Positions 1,494 to 40,616 of a stretch of DNA of 42,940 bases are shown here, in pieces. Both the position numbers and the translations under genes were made by a program. Where the stretch lies: IMG/VR virus record IMGVR_UViG_3300013101_000024, positions 1 through 42,940 of that record; one strand, 5' to 3'. Below the pieces are notes generated by a model, which was not told the origin of the DNA, searched no databases, and saw only the letters and a list, made by a program, of their open reading frames with translations. The stretch is from a virus. How positions within the stretch are numbered: position 1 is the stretch's first letter; each line of letters opens with the position of its first letter.

Positions 1494-4400
1494 ATGCCAG
1501 ATGATAAAAATGACAATCTAAATGATATGGCTAAATCTTCAGATAGTCTAAGGGCAAGAAAGATTAATAGTTTACATCGGTCTGTTGAAGATATAGTGCA
1601 TCAACAAAACAGACGTAGAATACAAACTGATAATCAAATAAAAGAAGCTGGATTATCCTCCGAAACAGAAAAAAATTATGATAGTATATTAAAAAGTTTG
1701 GGTCGTACTATAAGTAACTTAGCAACTGGTGTTAAAACTATTACAACTGAAACAGGAAAAGCAACAACAGATGCTATTGGACAATATGGTCGAGCAGTTG
1801 GTGAAGATATAAGTATTAATAAAACTAATACTGTAGCTATGGCTCTTTCTAAATCAACTCCATTATTTGGTTACTTCGCTGCTAAATTTATGGAAACAGA
1901 TGTATTTAAAGATGCAACTACTAGAATAAAAAATAATATTGGTTCTGCATTATCTGAAGGAATGTCTAAAGCTGGAAGTGGTATATCAAGTATATTTCAT
2001 AAAGGAAAACAATTTTCAGATGAACATCAACCAGCAACATCATCCGACTTAGAAAAATTACGAGCTTCAATTGATCAATCTCCTCCCAAATTACAGACAG
2101 GAGGATATGTAAGACAAGGTGGTTTAGCAGAATTACATGCAGCAGAAGTAGTAACTCCAATAGATAAACTATTAAAACAAATTGATGAAGCAAAAAGCGC
2201 TGATATTTCTAGAAAGTTAAATTCTACATTAGAAATTATGTCAGATAATGTAGGTGGATTAGAGGATGTTATACTCCATCAACAAAAACAACAACAAAGT
2301 GTTTTACAAACTTTTGTTACTGAATTTAAAAAAAATAAAGAATCTGAAGAATCTGGAACAGAACAATTATTAAATTCTATTAATGAACTAAAAGCAGGAT
2401 TAATAGGTTCAGCTGATAGAACAAGAGTAGCTTGGCAACAAACTTTATTAGATCATCCAACATTTCGTAATCTTAAAATGGCTTATGAAATATTATCGAG
2501 TGCAATGCTTAGTCCTATTAAATATTTATTTGGTATAAGAGGTGGTTATGCTGGTGATGTTAATAGAGCTATGTCATCTTCTAATATGTTTTTGAAACAA
2601 GCTAATTTGTTAGCATTAATTTACACCACAATGATGCCAAAGTTGGATAATATATCTCAATACACTAAAGCTGCAGCCGAAGGTATAACAGGTGAAAAAA
2701 TAGTACCTGGTAATATTAATAAGACCTATACTATGTTTGAAAAAATTAGAGCAAAATTAACTTCTCGTACTTTACCAGGACAAGAAGAAACATCTTGGAT
2801 GCATCGGTTCGCTAAACAATTTGGTTTAGATGAAGATGTAATGAAAGAAGCTGGTATAGGTGGATTAAAAGATTTTCTTAGACCACAAGATATTATGGGT
2901 AAGATGGGAGCTTCTCGTGAAAATATAAAAAGTAAATTTATGGAAGATGAAGAATGGGATACTCTTCGTTCATTTATAGGTAAATTTTCTAAAAGAATGC
3001 GAGAAACAGAAGGTTATGCTGCAGGAAAAAGTAGAGACAAAAAAAGATGGGATCAACAAGAAAAACAAGAGAGTTTTTTTACAAGTGTTAAAGAATACTT
3101 AAGAAAATTGACTAAAATGAAATCTGATCAAGAAGAAAGAGAAGGACCTCATTCACCAAGTATGGCTGAAAACATAGCTAGTACTACTAGAATGACAGAT
3201 GATCATTTTAAAGAAAATATGCAGAACGAAAAAGAGAAAAAAGGTATATTTCAAAAAATAAAAGAAAGTAGTTTTATGCAGTTAGATTTTATGAATAAAT
3301 TAACCGCCCAAGTTAAAAAATTAAGATCTTGGTTTTGGGATGCATTATTATTTGCTGGTGGATTTATTAAAAATATTTTCTTTAGTGGTTTAGGATCTCT
3401 GAAAAATTGGATCAAAGCTGGTTTGGGAGCTATTGGTTTAGGTGGTCTTGTTAAAAATTTAAAAGGATTTCTTGGTAAAGGTGGATCAAAACTTAAAGGT
3501 TTATTTGGTTTGGGTGCATCCGCTAATCCTTATGCTGCTGCAGTAGAAGGAGCAACAGCAAAAAAAGGAATTTTAGGTGTTGCAGGTAGAATGGGTGCTA
3601 AAGTAGCTGGTATTGGAGCTGGTGGTATTATGGGCGTAGGTATGGGTCTATGGGATATGGCTCGTGCTATTATTAGTGGAGATGAAGTTGGGTTCGTTGG
3701 TAATTTTATAACACGTGGATTAGCTGGTTTTCTTGGGGGTAGAGATTCTGGTCTTAGTGGTGCTATTAGTGGTGCTATGAAAGGTGGAGGGTTAGGATTT
3801 GCAGCAGGAGCGGTTACTGGACCAGGTGCTTTCATAAGTGGAGCATTAGGTGCTGCTGCAGGTGGTATACTTGGTTTTGTTGGTGGAGCAAACTTATCAA
3901 AAGCTATAAATAAAACAATGGAAGGTATAAGTAACATAACAAGTGCTATTTGGAAAATGATTAAATTTCCTTTTCAACTTATTAGAGAAGGATTACAATC
4001 TTTCGGAATTTTATTAAAATATCAATGGAATAAAGCGACTGCAAGTTTTAGAGATTGGTGGGAAAAAGATGGTATTATACAAAAAGGTCTGCATTGGATT
4101 ACTGATAAAATATCTTTTATTCTTGGTTATATTAAAAAACCATTTGTTGGCGCTGCTAATATGATTAAATCTTTAATAGATGGTTTTAGTTTAAGAAAAG
4201 GATTTATAAATAATCTTAAAGCTTTTGGTAATGCTCTATTAAACTTCCCAAAATATTTATTACAAGATACATATGAAAAATTATCAAAAATTCCTGTTAT
4301 AGGAAAATATATTAAAAAATCAATGGATGCTTTAGGTGGTTTTGTTAAAGATGTCCAAACAGGTGAATTATCAGATAAATTAGGAGAATCTTTAGGACAA

Positions 4401-12309: not shown

Positions 12310-12511
12310 ATTTTTTACTTTCCTCTAAGTATCGTTTTTGTTTATCTTCTTCCAGAGCTACTTTCCATTTAAGATAATTCAAAAATCTTTGAACTGGCAT
12401 AAATGTCACATCTATATAAGATTGTTTACTTAAGTCCATACACGAGAATATGTTCTCAGCTAGATCGTCTTTAAATTTAACGACTTCATCAGGCTGAGAA
12501 CAATGCGCGAA
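12302..12511 (-). CDS. Frameshift extension of the zinc-ribbon tail-assembly protein
   Basis: This frame is open from 12616 down to 12302 and overlaps the last 128 bases of the gene at 12489-13280 in the +1 (equivalently -2) frame. Its non-overlapping 62 residues look like real protein: charged, helical, ending KWKVALEEDKQKRYLEE, and they fill an otherwise gene-free 180 bases before gp25. No ribosome-binding site precedes its internal ATGs. In the overlap, minus-strand TTTTTT followed by C (12510-12515) lets a Phe tRNA re-pair after a +1 or -2 slip, giving ...VESF-FAHCSQPDE... and a fusion of about 325 residues. Tail-assembly chaperone pairs made by frameshifting are widespread in tailed phages (lambda G/GT, P2 E/E', Mu gp41/42 by -2). 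The exact slip site is inferred. Confidence 0.5.
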   Translation of the reverse strand, partial: FAHCSQPDEVVKFKDDLAENIFSCMDLSKQSYIDVTFMPVQRFLNYLKWKVALEEDKQKRYLEESKKYG

Positions 12512-13280
12512 AAAAGCTTTCCACAAGGTCAATAGTATGAGTGTCTTGTTGTCCACAACTAACACAACTGCTTGCCATTTTAAGTTCAATCCCATAGTCA
12601 CCAAAGGCATCTGCATAAGCTTTATAAATAGCTCGCTTATCTTTAGATGTCATCTGTAAATATGCATCCATTATATCAGCTCGATCATGATAAATAACTG
12701 GTTCTTTAGTTGATTCCCGAAGAACTGATATGCTTTCAATAATTAGAGTTTCAGTTATTAATTCTAATGTATTACCTGGTCGGTTCGATAATACTTTAAT
12801 ATTATTAATTTCATCAAAAAGAGTTGGTTGACGAACAATTACTGTAACTCCTTTTAATGCAGGTAATGGAACTTCCTTTCGATCTTTTAGAATATCACTA
12901 TCTGATGGATAACCATTAAAATTAAAAGTACTTGATGCTTTAACAGTAACAGGATATTCTTTACCGCAACTATTACATTTAATTTGATAGTTTCTAATTT
13001 CTTCATATGAAATATGATATAAACCATATAGAAGAGCATCTCTATCTTTTAAAGTATTACCACGCAAAAAAGAATCAATATCTGTAATTTCATCTGGTTT
13101 GTTTACTATAGAATTAAACAGACAACTATTAAGATGTTCAGCAACCTTAGTTGGAGTTATCAAACTTCCTTTTAATTTTTCTTCTTCTTGTACATTTAAA
13201 GATCTTACAGTATAAGATTTATTAGTCTGAGGAGTTATAACCTCATATTCGGGGTATGGTATTTCAAATCCTTTAAACAT
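12489..13280 (-). CDS. Zinc-ribbon tail/baseplate-hub assembly protein (T4 gp26/gp51-like role)
   Basis: This is a 263-residue protein. Two Cys pairs, CNSCGKEY near residue 102 and SCVSCGQQDTHTI near residue 237, could bind one zinc and join two distant strands. The N-terminus (MFKGFEIPYPEYEVITPQT) followed by a long helical region and a beta segment with ALKGVTVIVRQPT resembles the zinc-ribbon hub-assembly proteins that myophages encode near gp25 (T4 gene order 25-26-51). Such proteins are usually absent from the virion and act as chaperones. This is a pattern-based inference. The start has a GGAAAAGAG purine stretch close upstream. The 3' end carries the likely frameshift site at 12509-12516, so this is probably the short product of a two-product gene. 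Confidence 0.62.
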   Translation of the reverse strand: MFKGFEIPYPEYEVITPQTNKSYTVRSLNVQEEEKLKGSLITPTKVAEHLNSCLFNSIVNKPDEITDIDSFLRGNTLKDRDALLYGLYHISYEEIRNYQIKCNSCGKEYPVTVKASSTFNFNGYPSDSDILKDRKEVPLPALKGVTVIVRQPTLFDEINNIKVLSNRPGNTLELITETLIIESISVLRESTKEPVIYHDRADIMDAYLQMTSKDKRAIYKAYADAFGDYGIELKMASSCVSCGQQDTHTIDLVESFFRALFSA

Positions 13281-14592: not shown

Positions 14593-15099
14593 CTATTTTA
14601 AATATTTATCACGTTTTTTAATAACATTTAAAACACTACTCCAATTACCCTTAATTATTTGAATTGCTCTATCATCAATATAAAATTGTGCAGCTAATTT
14701 TTCTGCAGTAATTTTATCAAAATATATATCATATTTTTTTAACCATTTAATAACATTTTTAATATTTTCTTTAAAATCACCACCCAATTCTTCTGAATTT
14801 GTTTTCGAAGCTCTAGCTGTAAAAATAACAATTTCATAATTTTTTCTTTTTAACCAATTAATAACTTCTTTTGCTCCATCAAACGGTTCGTCATACATAG
14901 ACCCATCTTTATAACCTTGTGAATATTTATGTATAGTCCCGTCAAGATCAATCATTGCTCGTCTTGGTAGTGATGCTTCAGTAATTTCCGGATAAACAGT
15001 TCGAATTATATCTTTTTTCTTTTTTCTTTTAGATGAAGTGAATGAATCCATAGCAAAACCACCGACTGCTTCATTATCATCTTTTATAATTTTAGTCAT
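14593..15099 (-). CDS. HAD-superfamily phosphatase
   Basis: This is a 168-residue protein. All the main HAD motifs are present: motif I DLDGT at residues 51-55 (nucleophile D51, acid/base D53), motif II in IVIFTAR near residues 92-98, a Lys in the helix before motif III, and motif III FYIDDRAI with the acidic pair binding magnesium. The protein has no large cap, so a small phosphorylated substrate or a protein or nucleic acid end is possible. The short, single-domain form resembles phage-encoded 5'-nucleotidase-like or kinase-associated HAD proteins. Its first 30 residues are a Lys-rich extension. AGGAG precedes the start by six bases. It sits between tube and sheath genes, divergent from 15192. 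The substrate cannot be deduced. Confidence 0.75.
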   Translation of the reverse strand: MTKIIKDDNEAVGGFAMDSFTSSKRKKKKDIIRTVYPEITEASLPRRAMIDLDGTIHKYSQGYKDGSMYDEPFDGAKEVINWLKRKNYEIVIFTARASKTNSEELGGDFKENIKNVIKWLKKYDIYFDKITAEKLAAQFYIDDRAIQIIKGNWSSVLNVIKKRDKYLK

Positions 15100-15625: not shown

Positions 15626-17575
15626 TTAAACAATAAAGAAGTTTAATTCAATTTGTTCTACAACACGTGTTGGATCTAAAGTTACATTTACATGAAACTT
15701 TTTAGTTTTTCTTTCATATTCAGTTGCACCTACATCTACTGAATAACTATGAAGACCACGTTTCCTTTTTATAACTTCTAAGAACTCTATTAATTGACCA
15801 GAAACTTGAGACCAAGTAATTTCATCATTTTGCTCAAATATAAAGTAACGACAAAATTCTTCAAATGCTCTTTTAATATATAGAACTAAACGAACTATAT
15901 TTAAATCTTGAAGAGCACTAGCTCTTGCTTGAGAAGTTAATTGACCCCATACAACATACCCTGGATTAAACTTAACTATTGGATTTAATTGTTTAAGATA
16001 TAATTGATCTCTTTGACCTAATCTTGGATTATATCTCAATTCTTTAATAGTATCAATAGCACCTCTATTAAAACCAGCTGCAGCAAACCAAAGTTCAGCT
16101 ACATTATCATTTCTTGGTAATATATAAGACATATGATAAATTGGAGAGAACCAAGCATCCTGACCTGTAAATGGATCAAATATTTTATTATAAGATTCAT
16201 ACAGAGCAGTAAAATAGTTATTAAAAGTATTATCATTATTTCTAACAGATAACGCTAAATTAGCTGTAGGGTTATCACCATTATCCATAATAGCAACACA
16301 ATCACGTCTAGTTTGTACTAATGTACTAATAGCCGTTTTAACATCTCGTGGGTAACCACAATCAAATACCATAGAAAAATAAATATTTTCAGTATCTAAT
16401 ACATCTTCATCTATAATACCATTATAAGCTTGATTTAATAAAGTAGTAGCTTCATTAATATTTAAAGAACCATCTAGATTTAATAAATCTCCATCACTAC
16501 CTTTTCTAAAAGGAACAGGATCAGAAGAAATAAAAGCCTGTGTAACAGAACCATATGATTTTTTAATATGATATTCTATAATAGTAGTTGGATCAAAATC
16601 AGTTACATTACCATTACAAGATTGAGTGGTTAAAGCTCTATCATTAAATACTGTAACTTCTTCACCATCAGAACCTGCACTAGCACCACACCAACCCCAA
16701 ATTTCTTGACCTCTACCATCTTTAGCGATAATAACAAAGTCACCAGCTGGAGTACCTTCCCAATCAACAAAGTCTTGTTTAAGATCTGTTAAATCAGCTA
16801 AACCAGCAGTTAAAGTAACCCGAACATTAGTATCTAAATCTTTATCATAAACTTTAATATTTTCATCATAACCAGCTGAAAATCTATCATTGTCTTCATC
16901 AATGTACATTTGTGCTCTTAACATAGTAGAATATTTTGCTAATACATCAACAATCCAAATAGAATCTCCAGCAGTATCTTTAGCTTTCTTATCAAAAGAA
17001 ATAGCAAAAGATTCAATAATAGCATCTTGTCCGTCTGATTGTCTTTCATAAATATCTAGTATATATTGATCCCATAAAGTAGGATTAGCAACCTCAGTTA
17101 ATCTAACACCTATTTTATTATACCATTGACCTCTTCCTATTGGATTTAAAAAACAAATCGGATAAGCTGTGCCATCCTGTTGTAAATTACTTTCCATTTC
17201 TTCAACATCATACATACCTTCTACATATGTAATTTGCATACCAGCAGTTGAATCTCCTGGTACTACTGTAGCATCAATACGAATATTAGAGAAAGTCGCA
17301 TTATCCGGTAAAACTCTCATGTGAAATAAAGAACCTGATTCGCCTAAATAATTATAAGCACAATAAGGACCTTGACCAAAACTCTTTCCATAAGTTATAA
17401 TATTTGGTTCACCATATTCTCCAATATAATCTGATCTTGAACCAATAAATTTTAACTTATTGTCTTCACCTTTTTCTGTAAGGGTAGCCATAAAAGCAAT
17501 AGTAGAAGGAACTGCTTGAACGAACTGAGAAAGGTCTATAATTTTTGTATAAACACCTGGTGATACATTACTCAT
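15626..17575 (-). CDS. Tail sheath protein (gp18 family)
   Basis: This is a 649-residue protein with AGGAGG at a good distance from the ATG. The N-terminus SPGVYTKIIDLSQFV is the typical start of contractile sheath subunits (xPGVY). The C-terminal portion contains the other diagnostic patterns: APxGFNRG-like AAAGFNRGAIDT, GYVVWGQLTS near an LNIVRLVLYIKRAFEEF helix, and a last strand that closes the subunit. The size matches T4 gp18 (659 aa). Contraction of this protein drives the tube through the host envelope. The gene order with tube (same strand) and gp6/gp25/gp7-like wedges makes the contractile-tail assignment safe. Confidence 0.92.
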   Translation of the reverse strand: MSNVSPGVYTKIIDLSQFVQAVPSTIAFMATLTEKGEDNKLKFIGSRSDYIGEYGEPNIITYGKSFGQGPYCAYNYLGESGSLFHMRVLPDNATFSNIRIDATVVPGDSTAGMQITYVEGMYDVEEMESNLQQDGTAYPICFLNPIGRGQWYNKIGVRLTEVANPTLWDQYILDIYERQSDGQDAIIESFAISFDKKAKDTAGDSIWIVDVLAKYSTMLRAQMYIDEDNDRFSAGYDENIKVYDKDLDTNVRVTLTAGLADLTDLKQDFVDWEGTPAGDFVIIAKDGRGQEIWGWCGASAGSDGEEVTVFNDRALTTQSCNGNVTDFDPTTIIEYHIKKSYGSVTQAFISSDPVPFRKGSDGDLLNLDGSLNINEATTLLNQAYNGIIDEDVLDTENIYFSMVFDCGYPRDVKTAISTLVQTRRDCVAIMDNGDNPTANLALSVRNNDNTFNNYFTALYESYNKIFDPFTGQDAWFSPIYHMSYILPRNDNVAELWFAAAGFNRGAIDTIKELRYNPRLGQRDQLYLKQLNPIVKFNPGYVVWGQLTSQARASALQDLNIVRLVLYIKRAFEEFCRYFIFEQNDEITWSQVSGQLIEFLEVIKRKRGLHSYSVDVGATEYERKTKKFHVNVTLDPTRVVEQIELNFFIV

Positions 17576-27378: not shown

Positions 27379-27951
27379 TTATACTTTTCCTTTACTATAC
27401 GTAATTTTAAATAAAGATTTATCAAGAGTTAAAAAATCATCTGGTATTATATAGTTATCATTTTTCCTTTTTAAAGAAGGATTATTATATACATAAGAAA
27501 TAAATTCAGTACATGAAAATTTATTTTTATCTAAAAAATCAAAATCAAAATCATATTTTGTTTTCTTTTTAAATATTTTTCTTGCTTTTTTAATAGCTAT
27601 TTTAGATATTTGTTCATCATTACAATGGATAACTGTTACTGAATCACAACGACAGAATGTAAGGATATCTTGTTTATCTACTCCTTTACCTAACATATGA
27701 ACAATGTTATTAGATCCCATATAAATAGCTGAATGTGTATAATATCCAGGAATCATTAAACCACTAACATAATGATCATATCTTCTTAATAAAATATCAC
27801 CTGGTTGAATAGCATTTAAAACATCTCTAACATCTTCACCATTCATATGATATGAAGTTTTATTAAACATAATAAACATAGGATAAGGATAAATTAAAAT
27901 ATTACCAAACCACGACAAAGTTTTTTCTTTAATTTTATACCATAAATTCAT
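27379..27951 (-). CDS. NlpC/P60-type (YiiX-like) cysteine hydrolase
   Basis: This is a 190-residue protein. A PGDILLRR element (residues 50-57), then YTHSAIYMG with H73, and FSCTEFISYVY with C147 reproduce the permuted NlpC/P60-like order seen in YiiX/YebB proteins: P-G-D, H-x-x-(I/L)-Y-x-G, then Cys near the end. In this family the Cys-His pair hydrolyses amide or ester bonds, sometimes in peptidoglycan or lipids. The N-terminal 25 residues are hydrophobic with Trp/Tyr and could associate with membrane. The gene directly follows the phosphoesterase gene (10-base gap). A lysis, wall-degrading or lipid-modifying role is plausible, but the substrate is unknown. Confidence 0.68.
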   Translation of the reverse strand: MNLWYKIKEKTLSWFGNILIYPYPMFIMFNKTSYHMNGEDVRDVLNAIQPGDILLRRYDHYVSGLMIPGYYTHSAIYMGSNNIVHMLGKGVDKQDILTFCRCDSVTVIHCNDEQISKIAIKKARKIFKKKTKYDFDFDFLDKNKFSCTEFISYVYNNPSLKRKNDNYIIPDDFLTLDKSLFKITYSKGKV

Positions 27952-27961
27952 AATAGTTTCC

Positions 27962-28642
27962 TTAAATTTTTTTTATTGTAAAAGATTTATTATGTTCTAT
28001 AATTCCATATGTACCACTATGTATTATATCACCAAAATTAATATAATCACATTCTTTATATTCAACTATCTTTGGAACATGTGTGTGTCCCATTACTAAA
28101 TATCTACATTGATTTTTATAATATTTAATTGATTCCTTTTCAATATCTCCTACTAACTGATTAAAATATGTTTTATTTTTTTTATTTGAAATAGAATTAA
28201 ATAAATTTCTAGAAAATGATTTTATATTAATATGAAAAATTCTTTGACATATCCAATGAGGTATATATAATATTTTTGCAATCCAAGAATATTTAGTAAC
28301 TAAATTATCAAATTGATCACCATGAATAATTAATATATTATCCATTTTTAATTTATGAACTACTTTTATATCCGGAAAGATTTTTAAAATTTCATCAATA
28401 TTAGGATCATGATTTCCAATAACCCAATATATATCTTTAATTTTTGATTTATGTTTTAATGTTTTAACAATATAAGGATTATCACTTAAAATTCCTTCAA
28501 ATGATTCTTCCCAAATATCAAAAATATCTCCATTAAGAATTATAGTATCAAATTCATTAGATTTCAATAACTTAACAATTTCGAGTTTTTTATTCACAAG
28601 AGGACTTCCTAAATGTATATCTGAAAGTACTAATGTTTTCAT
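27962..28642 (-). CDS. Calcineurin-like metallophosphoesterase
   Basis: This is a 226-residue protein. The five metal-binding blocks are clear: LSDIHLG (6-12), NGDIFD (37-42), GNHD (76-79), IIHGDQFD (105-112) and GHTH (about residues 186-189). The insertion after HGDQFD with Trp/Pro and the MGHTHVPK end recall LpxH/UDP-diacylglucosamine pyrophosphohydrolase-type members more than the Mre11 group. Activity would be on a phosphoester or pyrophosphate substrate. If LpxH-like, it might act on envelope lipid precursors, but this is speculative. AAGGAG lies eight bases before the ATG, and the gene is followed by the NlpC/P60-like gene in the same operon. Confidence 0.82.
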   Translation of the reverse strand: MKTLVLSDIHLGSPLVNKKLEIVKLLKSNEFDTIILNGDIFDIWEESFEGILSDNPYIVKTLKHKSKIKDIYWVIGNHDPNIDEILKIFPDIKVVHKLKMDNILIIHGDQFDNLVTKYSWIAKILYIPHWICQRIFHINIKSFSRNLFNSISNKKNKTYFNQLVGDIEKESIKYYKNQCRYLVMGHTHVPKIVEYKECDYINFGDIIHSGTYGIIEHNKSFTIKKI

Positions 28643-30061: not shown

Positions 30062-30548
30062 TACCTCTTGTTATTAAGTCATATCTATTAACATCTATAT
30101 CATTAAATCTCCAAAGAATTCTATTCATTTTAACTTCAAGTAAAGAGATTAATTTTTCATTAAGAGATCTCATTGTTTCAATTTCAATTTCTCTTCTTTT
30201 AAAACATATCATAACACTTTCTCTTAATACAATAGCTTTCTTTTTATAGTTATATTTATCAGCTAAATCTAACCAGAAAGTGACTTTATCTTTATCTATA
30301 TTTAAAGCATCTATTACAATATTCTTTTTTCTTTTCATTAATGCTTCACACATAGTTTGCTCTACTGCTTCTATTGATGATTTATTTAAATCATAATCAT
30401 TTCCATTATGTTTCCAAGTTGTATAAAATTCTTGTCCTATTGTTTCTAAAATATCATCACTACATATTAATTGATAATCATTTAAATGTTTATCTATATA
30501 AGTACTTTTTCCAGAACCAGGTATTCCAATCATTAATACTAAATTCAT
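30048..30548 (-). CDS. Polynucleotide-kinase-like P-loop phosphotransferase
   Basis: This is a 166-residue protein. The Walker A loop GIPGSGKST spans residues 8-16, followed by CSDD at 29-32, as in the kinase part of T4 polynucleotide kinase and other AAA_33-type kinases. A lid-like CFKRRE segment near residue 110 and a helical C-terminus complete a single P-loop domain. No phosphatase or ligase half is present; the phage's HAD phosphatase at 14593 could in principle supply the phosphatase step, but they are not adjacent. The role may be nucleic-acid end repair or small-molecule phosphorylation. The ATG overlaps the upstream stop (TAATG). Confidence 0.72.
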   Translation of the reverse strand: MNLVLMIGIPGSGKSTYIDKHLNDYQLICSDDILETIGQEFYTTWKHNGNDYDLNKSSIEAVEQTMCEALMKRKKNIVIDALNIDKDKVTFWLDLADKYNYKKKAIVLRESVMICFKRREIEIETMRSLNEKLISLLEVKMNRILWRFNDIDVNRYDLITRGNDGK

Positions 30549-31252
30549 TATACACCCATAGCTATTGCTTGCACATATAAATATTTTTTACTATCTTGAA
30601 CTTTTCCTTGTACTTCAAATATAGCTCTGTCAGTTGGTAAATTTTCAATAGTATTATCAATCCATATTTGTCTAGTAGAATCATCTACAGTAACTTGAGC
30701 TATTACCTTATTATTAGTATAATCATATATTCTAACATAAGAAGTTGAACCATTTTTTGAATGACCTAATACTTTTAATTTTTCTGGGAGTCCTGCTAAA
30801 TCTGAACCATCATAAATAAATGAAGCAACGACAACCCAACTTTTAGTTTTAATTTTTAAACCATCAGCACTTTTAGTTCCATGACTATATGAGAAATTAA
30901 TATAATTACCATCTCCAGGTATATCAGCCCAAATAGTAGTAGTAGAATCAACACCTTTCAAAAATTTATCAGGTTCTATTGGCAGTATATTAGATAAATC
31001 CGTTAAATCAACATCATTTTCATCCTGAGGGCACTCACCATAATTAAAATCAACTACACATTCATCTAATGCTGTTTCTTCAGGTCCAGATAAATCAGAA
31101 ATAAATTCAATGTCAACATTATCTCCACCATTAATACTAATACCATTTAATTCTGTTGTTATTGTCGATTTTGAAATAATATCATTTTGTAAACAAGTAA
31201 GATCTATTAAATCTGCAAAATCATTTTGTAAAGAATAAGTATATATAGTCAT
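30548..31252 (-). CDS. Fibre/virion protein, paralog of C-terminal domain at 29540
   Basis: This is a 234-residue acidic protein placed between the fibre gene and the kinase gene. The last 95 residues (RIYDYTNNKVIAQVTV, NLPTDRAIFEVQGKV) are homologous to the C-terminus of the protein at 29540-30061. The N-terminal half has Asp/Asn-rich beta strands and a DECVVDFNYGECPQDENDVD stretch. It starts with GGAGGG seven bases upstream, at an ATG that overlaps the stop of the fibre gene. A co-assembled fibre or tip protein is the simplest explanation. Not identified further. Confidence 0.58.
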   Translation of the reverse strand: MTIYTYSLQNDFADLIDLTCLQNDIISKSTITTELNGISINGGDNVDIEFISDLSGPEETALDECVVDFNYGECPQDENDVDLTDLSNILPIEPDKFLKGVDSTTTIWADIPGDGNYINFSYSHGTKSADGLKIKTKSWVVVASFIYDGSDLAGLPEKLKVLGHSKNGSTSYVRIYDYTNNKVIAQVTVDDSTRQIWIDNTIENLPTDRAIFEVQGKVQDSKKYLYVQAIAMGV

Positions 31253-34200
31253 TAACTAACCCTCCATAACTCTATTCGAGCTTCCCAAATACTTGATTCA
31301 TCTCCAGAATTATCAGTTCTGTATTGTAGTGTGAAAGTTTGACTACCACTTAGAGTTTGATATAGAACTCTCGAAGAATAATATCTTTGAGTAGTACCTG
31401 TAGAACCGCCACCAGTATCATTATGTGGTTCTTGTTTATGTAATTCTCCTTGAGTTACTCCACCCTTTTGTATTCTACCTTCAAAATCATTTTTTTTGCT
31501 ATCATGATTCCAACCATATGAAACGCCAATTCTATAACTTCCACTTGGTAAATTAGATGTAACTAAAGTTACTTTAGTTTGAAAGCTTGTTGATGTTGTT
31601 GTACTTATACTTAAAGATTCTGATTGTTGAAACTCTGAACCAAATATATTTTGTATAGAAACTTGACTTGTAGAATCATCTGTAACTTCCATACCTTCAA
31701 AATTTAATACTTCAAAAGGAGTATTATCAACATAAGAATTATCTTCTTTTATATTAATTGTAGAACCAGAACCAACAGGACCTGGGGAACCATCTTCACC
31801 TTGAGGTCCTTTAGCTCTCATAATATTATAAGTGCTTTCTGGTATTAAAATATTAGTACCACCATCATCTTTACCTTGAAATGTAATATAATCACCTGAT
31901 GTCATATCACAATAAAACACATTTCCAGCATCATTAATTTCATCATCTTCACTGATGATTCTGAAACTCCCAGGTAATATATTATTACCATTTGATAAAA
32001 CTCGAAATTGAAATTCATTTTCACCACTATCTGCATTAACAGAAGCAGCATATGATATCATATATAAACCAGATTCTTTAATATAAATCCGTTCAGTATT
32101 ACTATTATCATGTTCTAAAACATTAGTATCATTCTCAACATCTGTAATATCAAAAACTATATCAGCCCATGATGTTGTTAAAGTATAATTTGTAGATCGA
32201 CGAACTTGTACGACAGATAAATCGTCTGGAATACCTGATATACCATCTATTCCACTAGTACCTGATGAACCACTAGTACCACTATCTCCAGAAGTACCAC
32301 TAGTACCTGAACTTCCTGATGTTCCATCTATTCCACTAGTACCTGAAGAACCACTTGTACCACTATCTCCAGCTATTCCACTAGTTCCAGAACTTCCTGA
32401 TGTTCCATCTATTCCACTAGTACCTGATGAACCACTAGTACCACTATCTCCAGAAGTACCACTAGTACCTGAACTTCCACTAGTACCACTATTTCCAGAA
32501 CTTCCCGATGTTCCACTAACTCCAGAACTACCTGATGTACCACTAGTTCCAGAACTTCCTGATGTTCCATCTATTCCACTAGTACCTGATGAACCACTTG
32601 TACCACTATTTCCACTTGTACCACTTGTACCTGATGAACCACTAGTACCACTGATTCCTGAACTACCAGATGTACCATCTATTCCACTTGTACCACTTGT
32701 ACCAGATGATCCACTTGTACCACTGATTCCTGAACTACCAGATGTACCAGATGTACCATCTATTCCACTTGTTCCAGATGATCCACTTGTTCCACTTGTT
32801 CCTGAATTTCCTGATGTACCTGAGCTTCCACTAGTACCGCTATTTCCACTTGTACCTGATGAACCACTTGTACCTGATGTACCACTATCTCCAGGTGGTC
32901 CTGCTGGACCAGCTGCACCACCTAAGTTAACATCCCATTGATTATATGTACCACTACCAGTAATTGTTTCTGGATTAACAATCATTTCACCAGTAATGGA
33001 ATTATATGAAATAATAGTTCCTTCTATTATATTATTTTCATCATGTACAACAACAACAGATTGACCAGTTGAATAAGCTAAACCTGAATCAGCTATTAAT
33101 GTAACATTTGATGTCGTGTCTAATGAAATAGTACTAGTTGAATCAGTTATATATGTATCTCCAGATTCCCCACTTGTACCTGAACTTCCTGAACTTCCTG
33201 ATGTACCTGTTAATCCACTTGATCCAGATGTTCCCGCAGTACCACTAGTACCACTTGATCCTGATGTACCACTATTTCCACTAGTACCTGATGAACCACT
33301 TGTACCTGAACTTCCTGATGAGCCAGATAAACCACTTGATCCAGATGTACCACTATTTCCACTAGTACCACTTGATCCAGATGTTCCAGTATTTCCACTT
33401 GATCCTGATGTACCACTTGTACCCGATGTTCCATCTATACCACTTGTACCTGATGAACCACTAGTTCCATCTATACCACTTGTACCTGATGAACCACTTG
33501 TACCTGAGCTACCTGATGAACCACTAGTTCCACTATCTCCAGAACTTCCTGATGAACCACTAGTACCTGAACTTCCACTAGTACCACTATTTCCAGAAGT
33601 ACCACTAGTACCTGATGAACCACTAGTTCCACTATCTCCAGAACTACCAGAAGAACCACTATCTCCAGAAGTACCAGATGAACCACTAGTTCCTGTTATT
33701 CCATCTATTCCACTTGTTCCAGAAGATCCAGAAGAACCACTATCTCCAGAACTACCAGAAGAACCACTAGAACCTGAACTTCCTGATGAACCACTAGTAC
33801 CACTATCTCCAGAAGTACCTGAACTTCCTGATGAACCACTAGTACCATCTATTCCACTAGTACCTGAAGAACCACTTGTTCCAGTTTGAATTAGATCATG
33901 AATAGCAGCAGCAGTTAAAATAGCTGAAGTACTATCTGTTATAGGGTTATTAGAAATTTCATTAATCGTATCACCATATTGTAATGAAAAACCATTTTCA
34001 TTGAAGTTTGCTTGTTCTATATTATTAATAGTAAAAGAAATTAAACCTGTTGATGTATCTATAGAAATAAAATCATCACCTGATGTTTCTAATCTTTTTT
34101 CATTATCATTCCACCAAGTAACTCTTGTATCTATTGGATTATCTTCTCGAGTAGCAACTGGTTGTAAATCACCATCTTCACCAATTTCAAATGTATCTGT

Positions 34201-34830
34201 TGTTTCATTAAATAAGAATTGATAATTGGTTAATGTTCCTCTGTCAATTTCTATTCCAGCTATTCCTGAAGTAACACCTGCTCCAGGTTCACCATCATTA
34301 AGAACTATAATATTATCAGAAGTAGATACTTCTTGATTATGTACCATAAATGTAGTACCATCAATAAATAAACTACCAAGAACTGATAAATTATTTACAC
34401 CACTAATATTATCATCATCATCTAAAATAATCCCAGAATCTTGAATAGCATCGGTTCCATCATATCTGGCTATTGTGTTATCAACACCAGAAGCTGTAAT
34501 TGATGAAGTTCCACTTGTACCTGAGCTTCCTGATGAACCACTAGTACCCGAGCTTCCAGATGAACCACTAGTACCACTATCTCCTGATGAACCTGAACTT
34601 CCAGACGTTCCATCTATTCCACTAGTACCTGAGCTTCCAGATGTTCCGTTAACACCACTTATTCCAGAAGACCCAGAACTTCCTGTTAATCCTGAACTAC
34701 CACTAGTACCTGAGAATCCTGAACTTCCTGATGAACCACTAGTACCTGAGATACCAGATGAACCGCTTGTGCCAGATATACCTCCTCCAGTACTATCAAA
34801 TGTACCTTGACCAGTAGCATCTCTTAACAT
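31252..34830 (-). CDS. Collagen-like Gly-X-Y tail fibre with C1q-like and fibre domains
   Basis: This is a 1192-residue protein with three long blocks of strict Gly-X-Y triplets, mostly GTS and GSS, with GID, GLS, GIS, GNS and GDS variants: residues about 15-110, 316-555 and 650-870. Between them lies a beta domain with VLGSLFIDGTTFMVHNQE and GIAGIEIDRGTLTNYQFLF, typical of phage fibres. After the last block comes a C1q/TNF-like jelly roll (YTLTTSWADIVFDI ... GLYMISYAASVNA), then short GPQGEDGSPGPVGSG and a final beta domain. The triplets almost lack proline, so a stable triple helix needs another source of stability; Ser and Thr dominate X and Y. It is probably a trimeric receptor-binding fibre. 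The adjacent giant glycosyltransferase is a candidate modifier of these Ser/Thr residues. Confidence 0.82.
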   Translation of the reverse strand: MLRDATGQGTFDSTGGGISGTSGSSGISGTSGSSGSSGFSGTSGSSGLTGSSGSSGISGVNGTSGSSGTSGIDGTSGSSGSSGDSGTSGSSGSSGTSGSSGSSGTSGTSSITASGVDNTIARYDGTDAIQDSGIILDDDDNISGVNNLSVLGSLFIDGTTFMVHNQEVSTSDNIIVLNDGEPGAGVTSGIAGIEIDRGTLTNYQFLFNETTDTFEIGEDGDLQPVATREDNPIDTRVTWWNDNEKRLETSGDDFISIDTSTGLISFTINNIEQANFNENGFSLQYGDTINEISNNPITDSTSAILTAAAIHDLIQTGTSGSSGTSGIDGTSGSSGSSGTSGDSGTSGSSGSSGSSGSSGSSGDSGSSGSSGTSGIDGITGTSGSSGTSGDSGSSGSSGDSGTSGSSGTSGTSGNSGTSGSSGTSGSSGSSGDSGTSGSSGSSGTSGSSGTSGIDGTSGSSGTSGIDGTSGTSGTSGSSGNTGTSGSSGTSGNSGTSGSSGLSGSSGSSGTSGSSGTSGNSGTSGSSGTSGTAGTSGSSGLTGTSGSSGSSGTSGESGDTYITDSTSTISLDTTSNVTLIADSGLAYSTGQSVVVVHDENNIIEGTIISYNSITGEMIVNPETITGSGTYNQWDVNLGGAAGPAGPPGDSGTSGTSGSSGTSGNSGTSGSSGTSGNSGTSGTSGSSGTSGIDGTSGTSGSSGISGTSGSSGTSGTSGIDGTSGSSGISGTSGSSGTSGTSGNSGTSGSSGTSGIDGTSGSSGTSGTSGSSGVSGTSGSSGNSGTSGSSGTSGTSGDSGTSGSSGTSGIDGTSGSSGTSGIAGDSGTSGSSGTSGIDGTSGSSGTSGTSGDSGTSGSSGTSGIDGISGIPDDLSVVQVRRSTNYTLTTSWADIVFDITDVENDTNVLEHDNSNTERIYIKESGLYMISYAASVNADSGENEFQFRVLSNGNNILPGSFRIISEDDEINDAGNVFYCDMTSGDYITFQGKDDGGTNILIPESTYNIMRAKGPQGEDGSPGPVGSGSTINIKEDNSYVDNTPFEVLNFEGMEVTDDSTSQVSIQNIFGSEFQQSESLSISTTTSTSFQTKVTLVTSNLPSGSYRIGVSYGWNHDSKKNDFEGRIQKGGVTQGELHKQEPHNDTGGGSTGTTQRYYSSRVLYQTLSGSQTFTLQYRTDNSGDESSIWEARIELWRVS
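32230..32890. repeat. Third GTS/GSS triplet repeat block (DNA level)
   Basis: The minus-strand gene encodes about 220 residues of Gly-Thr-Ser / Gly-Ser-Ser triplets here, giving a low-complexity tract of 9-base units such as ccactagta, with sharp copies and variants. It is prone to expansion and contraction by slippage or recombination. Confidence 0.85.
33170..33885. repeat. Second GTS/GSS triplet repeat block (DNA level)
   Basis: About 240 residues of strict Gly-X-Y triplets are encoded on the minus strand. The plus-strand reading shows a false open frame of VPELPDEPLVP repeats, which is only the antisense of this block. Confidence 0.85.
34500..34785. repeat. First GTS/GSS triplet repeat block (DNA level)
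   Basis: This N-terminal collagen-like block of the fibre gene encodes about 95 residues of Gly-X-Y triplets starting just after MLRDATGQGTFDSTGGG. Confidence 0.83.
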
Positions 34831-34872
34831 ATTATAGCCTCTATCTTTAGTTTGAATTACTTATTTTATTAA

Positions 34873-34881
34873 TTTGTTCTA
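34873..34881 (-). promoter_or_regulatory. Candidate late promoter motif before the fibre gene
   Basis: On the minus strand this reads TTTAGAACAAATTAATAAAA, 43 bases before the fibre ATG, in the 48-base gap between fibre and glycosyltransferase genes. It shares the core with sites at 14562, 15123, 18387 and 40881. It would let the fibre be expressed more strongly than the enzyme upstream. Confidence 0.42.
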
Positions 34882-37800
34882 AATTTCTTCATGGTTTAAA
34901 TGTTTCTTTATAGTATTCTGTATTGCTGTTTTAACCATACCAGGAGTTATTTTTAGAGTACATTCAAACTGTCTATGAGTTCCTTTTTGTCTTGGGCACC
35001 AGTTCCAGTCTCCCCTATCTATTGGAGCAATTGGATCATTAAAACAACCATGACATACATCTTCATTAATAACTCTCTCTATTTTATGCTGGTATTCACC
35101 CCATTTAGCGGAAAAACCAGAGATAAGAATAGTAGGTTTATTTAGTGTCCATGCTAACCATGTAGGACCAGCAGAGACACCCATATAAAATTCACAGTGT
35201 CTTATAGTACTAATAGTTGAGTGCATAGATCGATTTGTTCTATCAATTATATTTTTTAATTTAGTTGTTTCTTTACTTATAACTACAACTTTATACCCAA
35301 GATCATTTAAATAATCAACAATTTCTTGCCATCCACCTTTATAATTCCAGAATTTATTTTGAAAGGTTGAAAATTCAGAAATACAAACATACTTCTCTTT
35401 TATCTTTCTTCCTCTTTTAGTTTGAAGATCCATAGAAGGAACTATTTCTTTATATTCAAGACCCAAGAAGTCAGTACAAACTTGTTGTAAAGGAACAGAT
35501 CTCCAATGATTCTTATTTTTAGAAATATCATCATCAAAACATCCAACAGAATAAGAAGCATATAAATCATGTACTACTTCTCCAGGATATATAAATTTCA
35601 AATCCGAATATTGTTTCTGTGGTTCAAATAATCTATTCCAAAAAGTTGAAACCATTAATATACAATCATGTTTCTTTTTAAATTCTAACATATAAGGAAT
35701 CCAAGCTAAAGTATCCCCTAAAGACTTAGTATCAAAACTAATTAAAATTCTTCTACCTTTAGCATTAAATTCATGTTTGAAATCTAATTTACCATTTCTA
35801 TGAACTTCAATTAACCAATTAGTAAAATACTTTCTATGTGGTCTTGTCCAATAACCTATGTTCATTAATTCTTGATGAACACTTGAATTATTATCAGGAT
35901 CCAAAAAATCAGAAACAAAATAATTCTTAGTTGGTTCCCCATCTATTTGTAAATAAGGACCATCAACAAAATGACAAGTATAACGAGCAGGTTTTTGTTT
36001 TTCAGTTTCTAATTTAATTGCATGAGCTTCTACTTCATCTCCATGTCCAGTAACTTTTTCTTCTATACTAGTAACTTCAAAATCAAAAGACTCGAGAAAA
36101 TGTTTTAAACTACCTTTATTAAAACCACATAAATGAGAATTACCAGTATGAGTTTGACTTCCAAAGACAGCGCCAAGTTCTCTCCATTTATTTTCATCAG
36201 GAGCATTCAACCATTGTCTTATACCTTGTTCTAAATTTGGAATTCTAATAATTAGTTCTCCATTAGGTCTAAGAACTCTTCTCCATTCTTCCATAACACC
36301 ATACATATCATTAATACCAATATGTTCAAAAACATGGGAAGTATAAATTTCATCAACTCGACCATCTGGATATGACAAATCTCCTAAATCATCCTGACTA
36401 TCAACTAAACCAGTATTGTTATATTTATCAATATTAACATAACCTTTTTTAATATCATTTCCACAACCTAAATTTAATCTAATTGGTGTTGATTTGACTT
36501 TATAAGAAATAGCACAATATTTATAAAGATATGTAGTCCACATATAAGTTCTTTTTGAAGCAAGAAGGTCTTTACATTTAGAAAATAGTTTAAAATAATT
36601 TGAAGAATCCTTAACATTATAAAACTCTGGCGACCAATCAACATTAACAAAGAAAAATATAATTTCTGCTTTTCTCAATCCACTAGTCATCTGTTCATAT
36701 AATTCTATATCATCAGTATTAGTAACTTTAATAAATACATAATCTGTATGATAATCAACTTCATCAAAAATAACATCATGATCATAATACATTTCTTTAA
36801 TTAGATTTTGTCTATCAGAATTTATATTAAAACCAAAGCAAGATATTTTTTGTTTCTCACTTTCATTATTTAAATTACTATATAAAAAAGCAAACAATTC
36901 TTCATTTACTCTATCATAATTATGTAAATGTTTAAAACTTTTAGTTCTTCTTTTATCTGCTTGTTCTCTAATCTTTTCAAATTCTGTTTCTCTACCACCA
37001 AAATCTTTCCAACTACCAGAATTAGAACCACTTTCTCTCATACGAACTTTATAAAGAGTCCTATTTAAAAACAACGGAGTTCCTATTTCTTCTAATCTAA
37101 ATAATTTAACTAAGTCTTCATGTTTACCTAATTTAAAATCCCCATCATTAAAATCAAATAATGGACCAGGATTTCTATAAGAACGAATAACTCCAAACAT
37201 CATTCCTATTCTTTCTTCTCCGGATTTATTAGTTAAATAGATTTGATGTTTTTGTAATATACTATCATAGTTACCCATATTACAAAATGAAGAATTTTTA
37301 TAAGAACCAATACCTTTAAAATGTTCTAAGTGAAAATTAGCGTTAACATGTATACATTGTACTTGAGGATATTTATCATAAAAATGTGCTATAACTTCTC
37401 CGCATTTTGGAACAATAACATCATCAGCATCTATCGTACATATAATATCACCATTAGCATATTTATGAGGATTCCAATATATTTCTTGTTTTGATTCTTG
37501 ATCAATATATTTTATACGTCTATCTGTTTGAGCTAATTGTTTTATTTTTTCTTTAGTATTATCATCACTCCAATCATCAGTAATTATCCATTCCCAATCA
37601 TTCATTGTTTGTTCTAGTATACTATCTGCTAATTCATCCACATAAGCTTCTGTATTATAAAAAGAAGTAACAAAACTAATCTTCGGAGTTTTATTTCCAT
37701 ATTGTTTTGATTCAGTTTGAAGTAAATTATCATGCTTATCAAATAATTCAAAAGTAATACCATCTAATTCTTTTTCTGGAGTTCCAACACTTACCCAATA

Positions 37801-39156
37801 ATTAATAGATTTCTTTAAATCTCCAAAAACTGATTGATATAATATATTACCATCAAAGGATTTTACTATAACTTTAATATCATAATGTTTTAAATGGAAA
37901 GGATGAAATGTTATCTTTGGTTGGTTATCTTCTGTTAAACCAAATTCTACAAAAAATGTTTTTAATTGATTTTCCGGTTTTACAACGAAATGTTTTTTAG
38001 CTAATTCTTTAATATACTTTTCACCTTTTTTAGCTGCATTATCCCATGTATATTCTTCTCTTAAATCTTTAGATTGTTTTATAGCTTTTTGTTTATCTTC
38101 ATTATAATTATTATAAGAATCTCTCATGACTGATTTCAGATGATCAAAATCAGGTTCTCCCCAAACACCAAAGTCATGTTCATCTCCTAACATAAAAACT
38201 TCTTTTGGAGATTTTTCATTTGGAACATTTACTAACCGAGATATTCCATCAGCAAATTCTAATTGTCCACTCCAATTCGAACAGATAGTTGGAGTCCCAC
38301 AAGCTATAGCTTCCATTAAAGGAAGATTCCAACCTTCTGATCTTGAACATGAAAGAAATACATGACCACATTGTAACCATTGAATATATTCTTTTCTATC
38401 AGGGAAGTGTAATATCTTTAATTTATCAGTATTTATTTTATGATGTTCTAATCTATTTTCAGTAGTTTTTAATTCATCAGTAGAGAATGGGTTATCAACA
38501 GATAGTACTAACATAACCTTTTCATCATTCTTAAACTCTTCATTAAAAGCTTGAATCATTTCTGTAGTTGATTTTCTATAATCCCATCTACCGAAAACTG
38601 TAAATACAAAAGTATCTTCTGGAATATCATATTTTTGAAACAGTTCGTTTCTATTAATTTCTAGAAGATTTATTGGTTTGAAAATTTGACCATTAACACC
38701 TTCTGGTACGACTTTAATTCTATTTTCGGGATAACCTTGATCAATAGTACAATCTTTTTGCCATTGAGTTGGACACCAGAATTGATCAGCCTGTTTCATT
38801 CTTTCAAAAAATTCCGGAAACTGTCTGGTAGATTCCCAAACATTATAGAAAATTAAAGGACGTTCATATTGATCATAAAAGAAATAATGATGACTTTCAT
38901 TAAGCACTATATTTACTTTTAAATCATTTGGATTATGATTAAAAGGTGTTCCTAATTTATAAGGAGGATCATTCCAATTTTGTTCAATAATCATATCTTT
39001 CTGAGCTTGAGTATATTGGTGAAGGTTATCACCATATGAATAATTTCTAACTCGTACTGGAATATAATTATTTAAAGATGTAAAAAAATTTTTAGAATGA
39101 TTGTTATATCCTGTGTTACCACAAAACGACGTGTTTGCTATTACTTGAATTCCCAT
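34879..39156 (-). CDS. Four-module giant glycosyltransferase/methyltransferase with TibC-like C-terminus
   Basis: This is a 1425-residue protein. (1) Residues about 1-390: a GT4-type glycosyltransferase with VFTVFGRWDYRKS and EGWNLPLMEAIACGTP (E-x7-E at about 275-285). (2) About 490-760: a GT2 domain with ISFVTSFYNTEAYVDELADS and a DADD nucleotide-sugar metal motif near 580. (3) About 890-1050: a class I SAM methyltransferase (LNLGCGNDIKKGYVNID, VFEHI, RVLRPNGELIIRIPN). (4) About 1055-1400: a heptosyltransferase-like domain (FVDGPYLQIDGEPTKNYFV, SFDTKSLGDTLAWIPY) ending in CHGC ... WCP ... FEC, four cysteines like the iron-binding finger of TibC/Aah autotransporter heptosyltransferases. That family O-glycosylates Ser in surface repeats. 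It lies 48 bases before the Ser/Thr-rich fibre gene. Its target is inferred. Confidence 0.82.
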   Translation of the reverse strand: MGIQVIANTSFCGNTGYNNHSKNFFTSLNNYIPVRVRNYSYGDNLHQYTQAQKDMIIEQNWNDPPYKLGTPFNHNPNDLKVNIVLNESHHYFFYDQYERPLIFYNVWESTRQFPEFFERMKQADQFWCPTQWQKDCTIDQGYPENRIKVVPEGVNGQIFKPINLLEINRNELFQKYDIPEDTFVFTVFGRWDYRKSTTEMIQAFNEEFKNDEKVMLVLSVDNPFSTDELKTTENRLEHHKINTDKLKILHFPDRKEYIQWLQCGHVFLSCSRSEGWNLPLMEAIACGTPTICSNWSGQLEFADGISRLVNVPNEKSPKEVFMLGDEHDFGVWGEPDFDHLKSVMRDSYNNYNEDKQKAIKQSKDLREEYTWDNAAKKGEKYIKELAKKHFVVKPENQLKTFFVEFGLTEDNQPKITFHPFHLKHYDIKVIVKSFDGNILYQSVFGDLKKSINYWVSVGTPEKELDGITFELFDKHDNLLQTESKQYGNKTPKISFVTSFYNTEAYVDELADSILEQTMNDWEWIITDDWSDDNTKEKIKQLAQTDRRIKYIDQESKQEIYWNPHKYANGDIICTIDADDVIVPKCGEVIAHFYDKYPQVQCIHVNANFHLEHFKGIGSYKNSSFCNMGNYDSILQKHQIYLTNKSGEERIGMMFGVIRSYRNPGPLFDFNDGDFKLGKHEDLVKLFRLEEIGTPLFLNRTLYKVRMRESGSNSGSWKDFGGRETEFEKIREQADKRRTKSFKHLHNYDRVNEELFAFLYSNLNNESEKQKISCFGFNINSDRQNLIKEMYYDHDVIFDEVDYHTDYVFIKVTNTDDIELYEQMTSGLRKAEIIFFFVNVDWSPEFYNVKDSSNYFKLFSKCKDLLASKRTYMWTTYLYKYCAISYKVKSTPIRLNLGCGNDIKKGYVNIDKYNNTGLVDSQDDLGDLSYPDGRVDEIYTSHVFEHIGINDMYGVMEEWRRVLRPNGELIIRIPNLEQGIRQWLNAPDENKWRELGAVFGSQTHTGNSHLCGFNKGSLKHFLESFDFEVTSIEEKVTGHGDEVEAHAIKLETEKQKPARYTCHFVDGPYLQIDGEPTKNYFVSDFLDPDNNSSVHQELMNIGYWTRPHRKYFTNWLIEVHRNGKLDFKHEFNAKGRRILISFDTKSLGDTLAWIPYMLEFKKKHDCILMVSTFWNRLFEPQKQYSDLKFIYPGEVVHDLYASYSVGCFDDDISKNKNHWRSVPLQQVCTDFLGLEYKEIVPSMDLQTKRGRKIKEKYVCISEFSTFQNKFWNYKGGWQEIVDYLNDLGYKVVVISKETTKLKNIIDRTNRSMHSTISTIRHCEFYMGVSAGPTWLAWTLNKPTILISGFSAKWGEYQHKIERVINEDVCHGCFNDPIAPIDRGDWNWCPRQKGTHRQFECTLKITPGMVKTAIQNTIKKHLNHEEI

Positions 39157-39692: not shown

Positions 39693-40616
39693 TTATAAAC
39701 TTAATATTTGTTGATTAATTGTTTGTAAAGTTTCAACTCTATCTTGAAATTTATTTTCTAGTTCTACTTCCCATTCTTTTATTTTATCACCAATATAGAG
39801 AAAAGCATCTGTTTCGTCTTGTTTTAATAGATTAATCGCATCAACTTTTTTAGTAATATCAATACCAACACCTGCTATATATTTAATATTATGATTACGA
39901 TCTTCTATAAATTTACTAGTATTAAGTATCCATATTGTTGAACCATCTTTACATAATGCTTCATATTCTATATTATGATTTATATGTTCTCCATTTTTTA
40001 ATTTTTTTATTCTATCTTTATACATAACTAAACTTTTCTTTGTTAAAAATTTATCAATACTATTACTTAGTAATTCTTTTTTGCTCCATCCAGTCTTTTC
40101 TATTAAATTATCATTTACAAAACTAAACTTATTTTTCTTTATATCTACTTCATAAATAAAAGATTTTGTTGCTTTAATCAATTCTTTATATTTAGCTTTC
40201 GTTATAATCATTTCTTTTTTAATTTTTGATCGTTCAATAGCATATTTTAATGATCTATATAATAATCCAGAATTAAGATCTGTTTTTACTATATAATCTT
40301 GAGCGCCTAAACGCACACATTTACAAGCATTTTCTTGAAAACCAGATACTATTACTATAGGAATATCTATTCCTGTTATTTTATATAAAGCTTCAAAAGT
40401 GTGTAACCCTTTACTATTGGGTAAGTTCAAGTCAAGTAAAACAATATCCACCTCATTAAAATTTTCTTTAATATAATCAATACCCTCATTTAATCGTTTT
40501 TTTGCAACAGAATTAAATTCTGTAGATGTATGACTTAATAACTCAGGTATTAGATCTTGTAACTGATCCTCATCCTCTATGTAAAGTAAATTTACTTTAG
40601 GTGGCATTATACACAT
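39693..40616 (-). CDS. Receiver-PAS signalling protein
   Basis: This is a 307-residue protein. Residues 8-125 are a response-regulator receiver: acidic pair E14-D15, phospho-acceptor D62 in VLLDLNLP, S91 in VIVSG and K111 in YIVKTD. All the residues needed for phosphorylation are present. About residues 140-260 are a PAS domain (YKELIKATKSFIYEVDI, FSFVNDNLIEKTGWS, SIWILNTSKFIE with a final GVGIDIT). A C-terminal helix follows. No histidine kinase, DNA-binding or output enzyme domain is attached. In phage a receiver-PAS protein could intercept a host histidine kinase signal. GAGG lies seven bases before the ATG. The PAS ligand is unknown. Confidence 0.85.
   Translation of the reverse strand: MCIMPPKVNLLYIEDEDQLQDLIPELLSHTSTEFNSVAKKRLNEGIDYIKENFNEVDIVLLDLNLPNSKGLHTFEALYKITGIDIPIVIVSGFQENACKCVRLGAQDYIVKTDLNSGLLYRSLKYAIERSKIKKEMIITKAKYKELIKATKSFIYEVDIKKNKFSFVNDNLIEKTGWSKKELLSNSIDKFLTKKSLVMYKDRIKKLKNGEHINHNIEYEALCKDGSTIWILNTSKFIEDRNHNIKYIAGVGIDITKKVDAINLLKQDETDAFLYIGDKIKEWEVELENKFQDRVETLQTINQQILSL

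Follow-up and report, generated by a model that had tools for sequence, protein, structure and literature searches.

A predicted phage O-glycosylation system pairing a TibC-like fusion enzyme with a Ser/Thr-rich collagen-like fibre

The 42,940-nt stretch of DNA analysed here (the window) covers positions 1 to 42,940 of the IMG/VR record IMGVR_UViG_3300013101_000024 and is a fragment of a tailed-phage genome. Near its right end lies a consecutive pair of minus-strand genes, the upstream one encoding a 1425-residue multi-domain glycosyltransferase and the second, after a gap of 48 bp, a 1192-residue collagen-like fibre dominated by Gly-Ser/Thr-Ser triplets (Table 1). Many divergent viruses, and independently some bacteria, encode an enzyme of this kind and a Ser/Thr-triplet protein in close proximity. 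We propose, with a probability of roughly 0.8, that the viral enzyme O-glycosylates protein, its dedicated substrate being the Ser/Thr-rich Gly-X-Y tracts of the fibre encoded beside it, with fused modules that extend and modify the glycan.

Pfam and NCBIfam profiles order the modules of the enzyme as GT4, GT2, S-adenosylmethionine (SAM) methyltransferase and C-terminal TibC/Aah-type domain, and the signature and catalytic motifs of all of them look intact at the sequence level. The open reading frames and these profile matches, which include PF00534, PF00535 and TIGR04414, agree with the initial annotation, made from the DNA letters, which had described the same four-part enzyme 48 bases before the fibre and had suggested checking it against such profiles. 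That annotation's picture of a nearly proline-free fibre of Gly-Thr-Ser and Gly-Ser-Ser triplets holds for the triplet tracts but not for the whole protein, about half of which is not triplet. The four tracts of the fibre comprise 31, 81, 77 and 5 triplets, a total of 194 Gly-X-Y triplets that take up 49% of its length; non-collagen domains between the tracts and at the C terminus make up the remainder. GTS (78) and GSS (61) account for 72% of the triplets and the tracts hold 313 Ser/Thr residues, whilst proline fills 7 of the 388 X and Y positions (~2%), so that the imino-acid richness typical of collagen is lacking. Glycine recurs at every third residue, uninterrupted, in runs of 31, 81 and 77 triplets; the longest run in 2000 shuffles was 8, against 81 in the fibre. 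Codon use for Gly, Ser and Thr is highly mixed, indicating that the period is kept by selection at the protein level rather than by recent DNA slippage. Third-position GC content (0.126 for the enzyme and 0.06 for the fibre) is similar to the 0.08-0.11 of the other late genes used for comparison, and thus neither gene looks recently imported.

TibC and AAH (the BAHT family; TIGR04414; PDB 4rap, 4rb4) act on autotransporters (PMC4358343). The C-terminal domain of the window enzyme matches TIGR04414 ('autotransporter strand-loop-strand O-heptosyltransferase') at 260.5 bits, against a curated cut-off of 200 (263.9 bits in the genome search), and E. coli TibC at 3e-50. Modelling of the domain by AlphaFold from 39 aligned viral sequences gave a predicted local distance difference test score (pLDDT) of 92.9 and a predicted template modelling score (pTM) of 0.89. 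When the model was compared with the PDB, the first 21 matches were all TibC chains, with template modelling (TM) scores of 0.85-0.90 at 30-32% identity, whereas the lipopolysaccharide (LPS) heptosyltransferases WaaC/WaaF scored far lower (TM ~0.5). As modelled, the domain would have both the beta-barrel and the GT-B fold of TibC; fit to this fold had been set beforehand, in the initial annotation, as a test of refutation, and the domain passed it. We took the essential residues of TibC from PMC4358343 and mapped them onto the enzyme by residue count along the HMMER alignment. Catalytic Asp110 corresponds to D1148, Thr226 to T1264, Lys230 to K1268 and Trp305 to W1333, all kept, as are the four cysteines of the iron finger (C1368, C1371, C1387 and C1399). 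D110, T226, K230, W305 and three of the iron-finger cysteines are invariant in the 39 viral domains, the fourth Cys being present in 37 of them. Pro300 of TibC is replaced by Ser, as in AAH. Two viral proteins in UniProt/BFVD, A0A6J5SVC1 (automatically named 'Glycosyltransferase Aah/TibC') and A0A7S9XE01, match the domain closely, in each case within a large phage fusion protein.

A search of viral contigs with the whole 1425-residue protein returned no related loci. The alignment of the C-terminal domain matched more than 550 viral-contig loci, of which we fetched 80 (38 clusters at 85% identity). Ser/Thr-rich GXX runs of at least 8 lie within 10 kb of the enzyme at 57 of the 80 loci, many of the contigs being cut. 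At the closely related loci L007 and L008 (59% identical) enzyme and fibre follow one another in the order seen in the window, 143 bp apart. Among whole enzyme-bearing viral records, (G[ST][ST])x6 occurs in 32 of 41 and a backwards control pattern in none; the looser G[ST]X x7 adds five more, including that of Microcystis phage Mel-JY01, bringing records with dense tracts to 37 of 41, a figure that is partly circular since 14 of the 41 were reached through their tracts. Once those 14 are set aside, 23 of the 27 enzyme-bearing records still carry tracts (19 strict, 4 loose). By comparison, the easier x5 version of the strict pattern is found in 1 of 50 random viral records, drawn by a neutral DNA pattern. 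The reverse test gave the same association: TIGR04414 was matched above cut-off in 21 of 50 records chosen solely for GTSGSSGTSG, but in 0 of 50 Gly-Pro-X collagen records and 0 of 50 random viral records (21/50 vs 0/50, Fisher p 7e-8). The co-occurrence in other genomes that the initial annotation had asked for is thus found from both directions.

An association of this sort might reflect life style, if large aquatic phages happen to carry both long Ser/Thr tracts and many glycosyltransferases. Most matches are large environmental phage contigs, and record length differs between the groups, the random control contigs being smaller. However, the contrast persists in records of at least 60 kb (15/22 vs 0/12, p 1.4e-4); in records above 50 kb a tract lies within 10 kb of the enzyme in 15 of 18 clusters, where random placement predicts 3.8 (one tract per record) or 8.7 (three); and the family-matched bacterial test described below is independent of phages. 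We therefore regard a mere life-style association as unlikely.

In bacteria the domain stands alone (370-440 residues) and adjoins genes whose products, secreted proteins or lipoproteins, contain GTSGTSG or GSSGSS tracts. Such pairs are seen in several gammaproteobacterial groups, Methylococcaceae (methanotrophs) among them; loci with a (GTS)n or (GSS)n secreted protein or lipoprotein beside the stand-alone enzyme are L093, L096, L098, L089 and L487-L491. Within the methanotroph family to which Methylomicrobium sp. RS1 belongs we examined 121 genomes, nine of which encode a BAHT enzyme above cut-off. Strict tracts are present in five of these nine and, as true tracts, in none of the other 112 (p 6e-7); a match in G240 did not count, since it is out of frame and contains a stop. 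For seven of the nine BAHT genes the triplet protein is the neighbouring gene, and the neighbour of the eighth is a degenerate member of apparently the same secreted family. The remaining BAHT gene (L490) encodes a classical TibC (654 bits) and stands beside what by eye are autotransporter-type strand-loop-strand repeats. The triplet tract is the sole visible feature common to the bacterial and the phage partner proteins, which points to the tract itself as the substrate.

The recurrence of the enzyme in bacteria also bears on two other possible targets. One is the surface of the infected host, whose glycans (LPS or capsule) the enzyme might alter, for example to block superinfection, its proximity to the fibre being a chance product of the structural cluster. 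In favour of this reading, WaaC/WaaF-type heptosyltransferases share the GT-B fold, and serotype conversion is a frequent role of phage glycosyltransferases (PMC12619734). Against it, TibC, which is protein-specific, resembles the domain far more than LPS heptosyltransferases do, and the window showed no membrane Gtr partner. The enzyme is associated with Ser/Thr triplet tracts but shows no such association with Pro-type phage collagen, and its bacterial counterparts stand beside secreted triplet proteins. Taken together, these points make a host-glycan role highly improbable. The other is a different virion protein, such as capsid or tail tube, with the fibre no more than a neighbour. A precedent exists in mycobacteriophages, where a phage glycosyltransferase is described as modifying the C-termini of capsid and tail-tube proteins (Freeman et al. 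2023, cited in PMC12619734), but the triplet tract is itself a conserved neighbour, found in unrelated phages as well as in bacteria, and the bacterial cases are secreted proteins that have no virion, so that we consider such a target very unlikely. The mycobacteriophage system is like the one proposed here in using a phage-encoded glycosyltransferase for virion structural proteins and unlike it in that the targets are not collagen-like fibres. To our knowledge, no TibC-type enzyme takes part in mycobacteriophage virion glycosylation.

Several findings nevertheless weigh against glycosylation of the fibre tracts by a TibC-like enzyme. TibC Arg286, which contacts the adenine of ADP-heptose and is essential in TibC (PMC4358343), is Thr1314 in the window enzyme and Thr or Val in 32 of the 39 viral domains. 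The region of the beta-hairpin thumb, which joins TibC dimers into a dodecamer, is 22 residues long compared with ~32 in TibC (21-28 in all 39 viral domains), and oligomer and substrate handling must therefore differ from those of TibC. No tract, strict or loose, was found in the enzyme-bearing records G102, G123 and W03, and many tract-bearing records lack the enzyme, though most of these are fragments. The placing of the fibre on the virion comes from gene context, and the triple helix is putative for triplets so poor in proline. Finally, no pathway for a sugar-nucleotide donor was seen in the window.

The changes to the domain have a pattern of their own. TibC, L490 and two other bacterial copies with no triplet tracts nearby (L099 and L095) have the thumb as well as Arg286, whereas several triplet-associated bacterial copies keep Arg286 without the thumb; loss of the thumb thus tracks the triplet partner better than does loss of the Arg. 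FastTree places the TibC-type copies outside the other sequences, although support for the separating node is weak (0.74), and the viral and bacterial triplet-associated copies are interleaved. As the thumb, Arg286 and the usual partner were each looked for and are missing, we file the domain as a variant of the BAHT family, marked by thumb loss and a triplet partner, and not as a standard member. BAHT genes also occur on two contigs binned as archaeal, L086 (in a Nitrosotalea metagenome-assembled genome, MAG) and L095 (in a Pacearchaeota MAG). The former resembles the fusions of phages and could be viral sequence binned in error; the latter has no iron-finger cysteines in its aligned part.

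What the individual modules might do is suggested by related fusions. In 37 related fused enzymes the GT9/TibC module is found in 35, GT4 in 27, an FkbM methyltransferase in 12 and GT2 in five; the TibC-type domain is the constant part and its companions vary, so that priming by the former and extension by the latter is the simplest reading. The C-terminal domain would place the first sugar, probably a heptose, on hydroxyls of tract Ser and/or Thr residues, the GT4 and GT2 modules would lengthen the glycan and the methyltransferase module would modify it, so that the virion would bear an extended, mucin-like fibre shaft covered with sugar. The missing thumb predicts dimers rather than rings. 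Such a coat might stiffen the shaft, protect it from proteases, provide shielding or serve adsorption. The initial annotation put forward a short, methyl-capped glycan, added stability for a collagen helix and changed receptor use, all of which we keep as conjectures. On a wider scale it seems to us reasonably likely that this is one instance of a widespread and hitherto unrecognised system. For a TibC subfamily without the thumb, Gly-Ser/Thr-Ser triplets in phage fibres and bacterial secreted proteins would be the substrate code, and fusion to exchangeable modules (GT4, GT2, FkbM and other methyltransferases) would let each phage coat a collagen-like shaft free of proline with a glycan of its own making.

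Variation in architecture extends to module order: at L028, L029, L030, L032 and L073 the TibC-type domain is N-terminal, with other modules making up the ~540-1030 residues after it. Each of the viral records G018, G025, G035 and G048 has two BAHT copies that score above or near the cut-off.

The donor is probably a host nucleotide-heptose, ADP-heptose being likely but not certain; the loss of Arg286 leaves room for other donors. The initial annotation called the system self-contained, a description that we have dropped in view of the missing donor pathway: gmhA was found in 2 of 42 enzyme-bearing records searched, including LR756504, and all matches to rfaE_dom_II in enzyme-bearing records were below cut-off (weak rfaE-like genes). 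In the 636-kb phage LR756504.1 the gmhA gene (L453, 430182-430640) is above the curated cut-off and lies ~27 kb from the BAHT gene, a hint of phage control over heptose supply. The window itself encodes a HAD-type phosphatase (14593-15099, minus strand) between the tail-tube-like and sheath genes; its best PHROG match is 1238, 'phosphoheptose isomerase' (1e-21), and NCBIfam gives the EcbF/BcbF capsule phosphatase (2e-9). We considered GmhB for this gene and rejected it, an EcbF-type capsule phosphatase fitting better, though weakly.

Set against known systems, the closest likeness is to TibC/AAH, with which the window domain shares its fold, the catalytic Asp, the phosphate-binding Thr and Lys, the heptose-contacting Trp and the four-Cys iron finger. 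In TibC/AAH the substrate is a repetitive Ser-rich surface protein encoded alongside, as it would be here. The window domain differs in its thumb, ~10 residues shorter, in the replaced adenine-contact Arg and in its fusion to GT4, GT2 and methyltransferase modules, and its partner is a Gly-Ser/Thr-Ser triplet fibre rather than a strand-loop-strand autotransporter. Mimivirus hydroxylates and glycosylates collagen, having collagen-like proteins of its own (Luther et al. 2011, as mentioned in PMC8968730). That a virus puts sugar on its own collagen-like proteins is common to mimivirus and to our proposal, which differs in invoking Ser/Thr O-glycosylation by a GT-B, TibC-like enzyme. The mimivirus system reportedly acts on hydroxylysine through an unrelated bifunctional enzyme. 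BclA of Bacillus is a glycosylated spore collagen (PMC8968730). It offers a second parallel, that of a glycosylated bacterial collagen-like stalk. Its triplets are GPT and its glycans rhamnose-based, and we know of no TibC-type enzyme involved in their addition.

In the open-licence literature we found no paper that ties this enzyme family to phage fibres or GTS triplets, or that proposes a substrate for phage enzymes of the A0A6J5SVC1/A0A7S9XE01 type. If our proposal is correct, the common GTSGSSG-type phage 'collagens' would be explained as glycosylation scaffolds, able to do without proline, a protein-O-glycosyltransferase family known so far from autotransporters would gain a new class of substrate, and phage virion glycosylation would extend to fibres. 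The pairing is open to simple genetic and mass-spectrometric tests in the isolated phage Mel-JY01 and in cultured methanotrophs.

The deposited Mel-JY01 record (PP395634.1) contains a GTS-type collagen fibre frame of ~202 triplets (L001:2-3049) that is mostly unannotated, an opposite-strand open reading frame (739-2298) and a short one (2519-3052) being called instead. The frame lies shortly upstream of a TibC-type fusion enzyme labelled just 'methyltransferase FkbM'.

Table 1. Positions of the enzyme, the fibre, their parts and selected other genes in the window
Feature	Position	Strand	Remarks
Multi-domain protein glycosyltransferase (GT4-GT2-methyltransferase-TibC-like), 1425 aa	34879..39156	-	
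GT4 module, residues ~1-385	38002..39156	-	PF00534 4.6e-14; phrog_2170 1.6e-35; EX7E 274-282
GT2 module, residues ~491-770	36847..37686	-	PF00535 1.9e-19; DAD 576-578; boundary past ~607 estimated
SAM methyltransferase module, residues ~887-1050	36007..36498	-	PF08241 3.4e-8; motif I LNLGCG 894-899
TibC/Aah-like O-heptosyltransferase domain, residues 1053-1418	34903..36000	-	hepto_Aah_TibC TIGR04414 2.2e-77
Collagen-like (Gly-Ser/Thr-Ser) fibre, 1192 aa, presumed substrate	31252..34830	-	PF01391 2.4e-75; PHROG tail fibre families
Triplet tract 1, 31 triplets, residues 17-109	34504..34782	-	
Triplet tract 2, 81 triplets, residues 317-559	33154..33882	-	
Triplet tract 3, 77 triplets, residues 638-868	32227..32919	-	begins GAAGPAGPPG
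234-aa protein, no assigned function	30548..31252	-	ATG overlaps fibre stop (TAATG)
Sheath gene	15626-17575	-	contractile-tail gene
Hub gene	12489-13280	-	contractile-tail gene
Baseplate wedge gene	7538-10021	-	contractile-tail gene

The window is AT-rich and its contractile-tail genes, like the enzyme and fibre genes, are on the minus strand. The 234-residue protein that follows the fibre has no match in Pfam or PHROG; it is probably co-translated with the fibre, as its start overlaps the fibre stop codon. A protein with response-regulator receiver and PAS domains is encoded at 39693-40616 (minus strand), within the phage structural region, and is separated by one small gene from the enzyme downstream. 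Two adjacent minus-strand genes, at 27962-28642 and 27379-27951, encode, in that order, an LpxH-like calcineurin-type phosphoesterase and a permuted papain-like amidase (C92 family).

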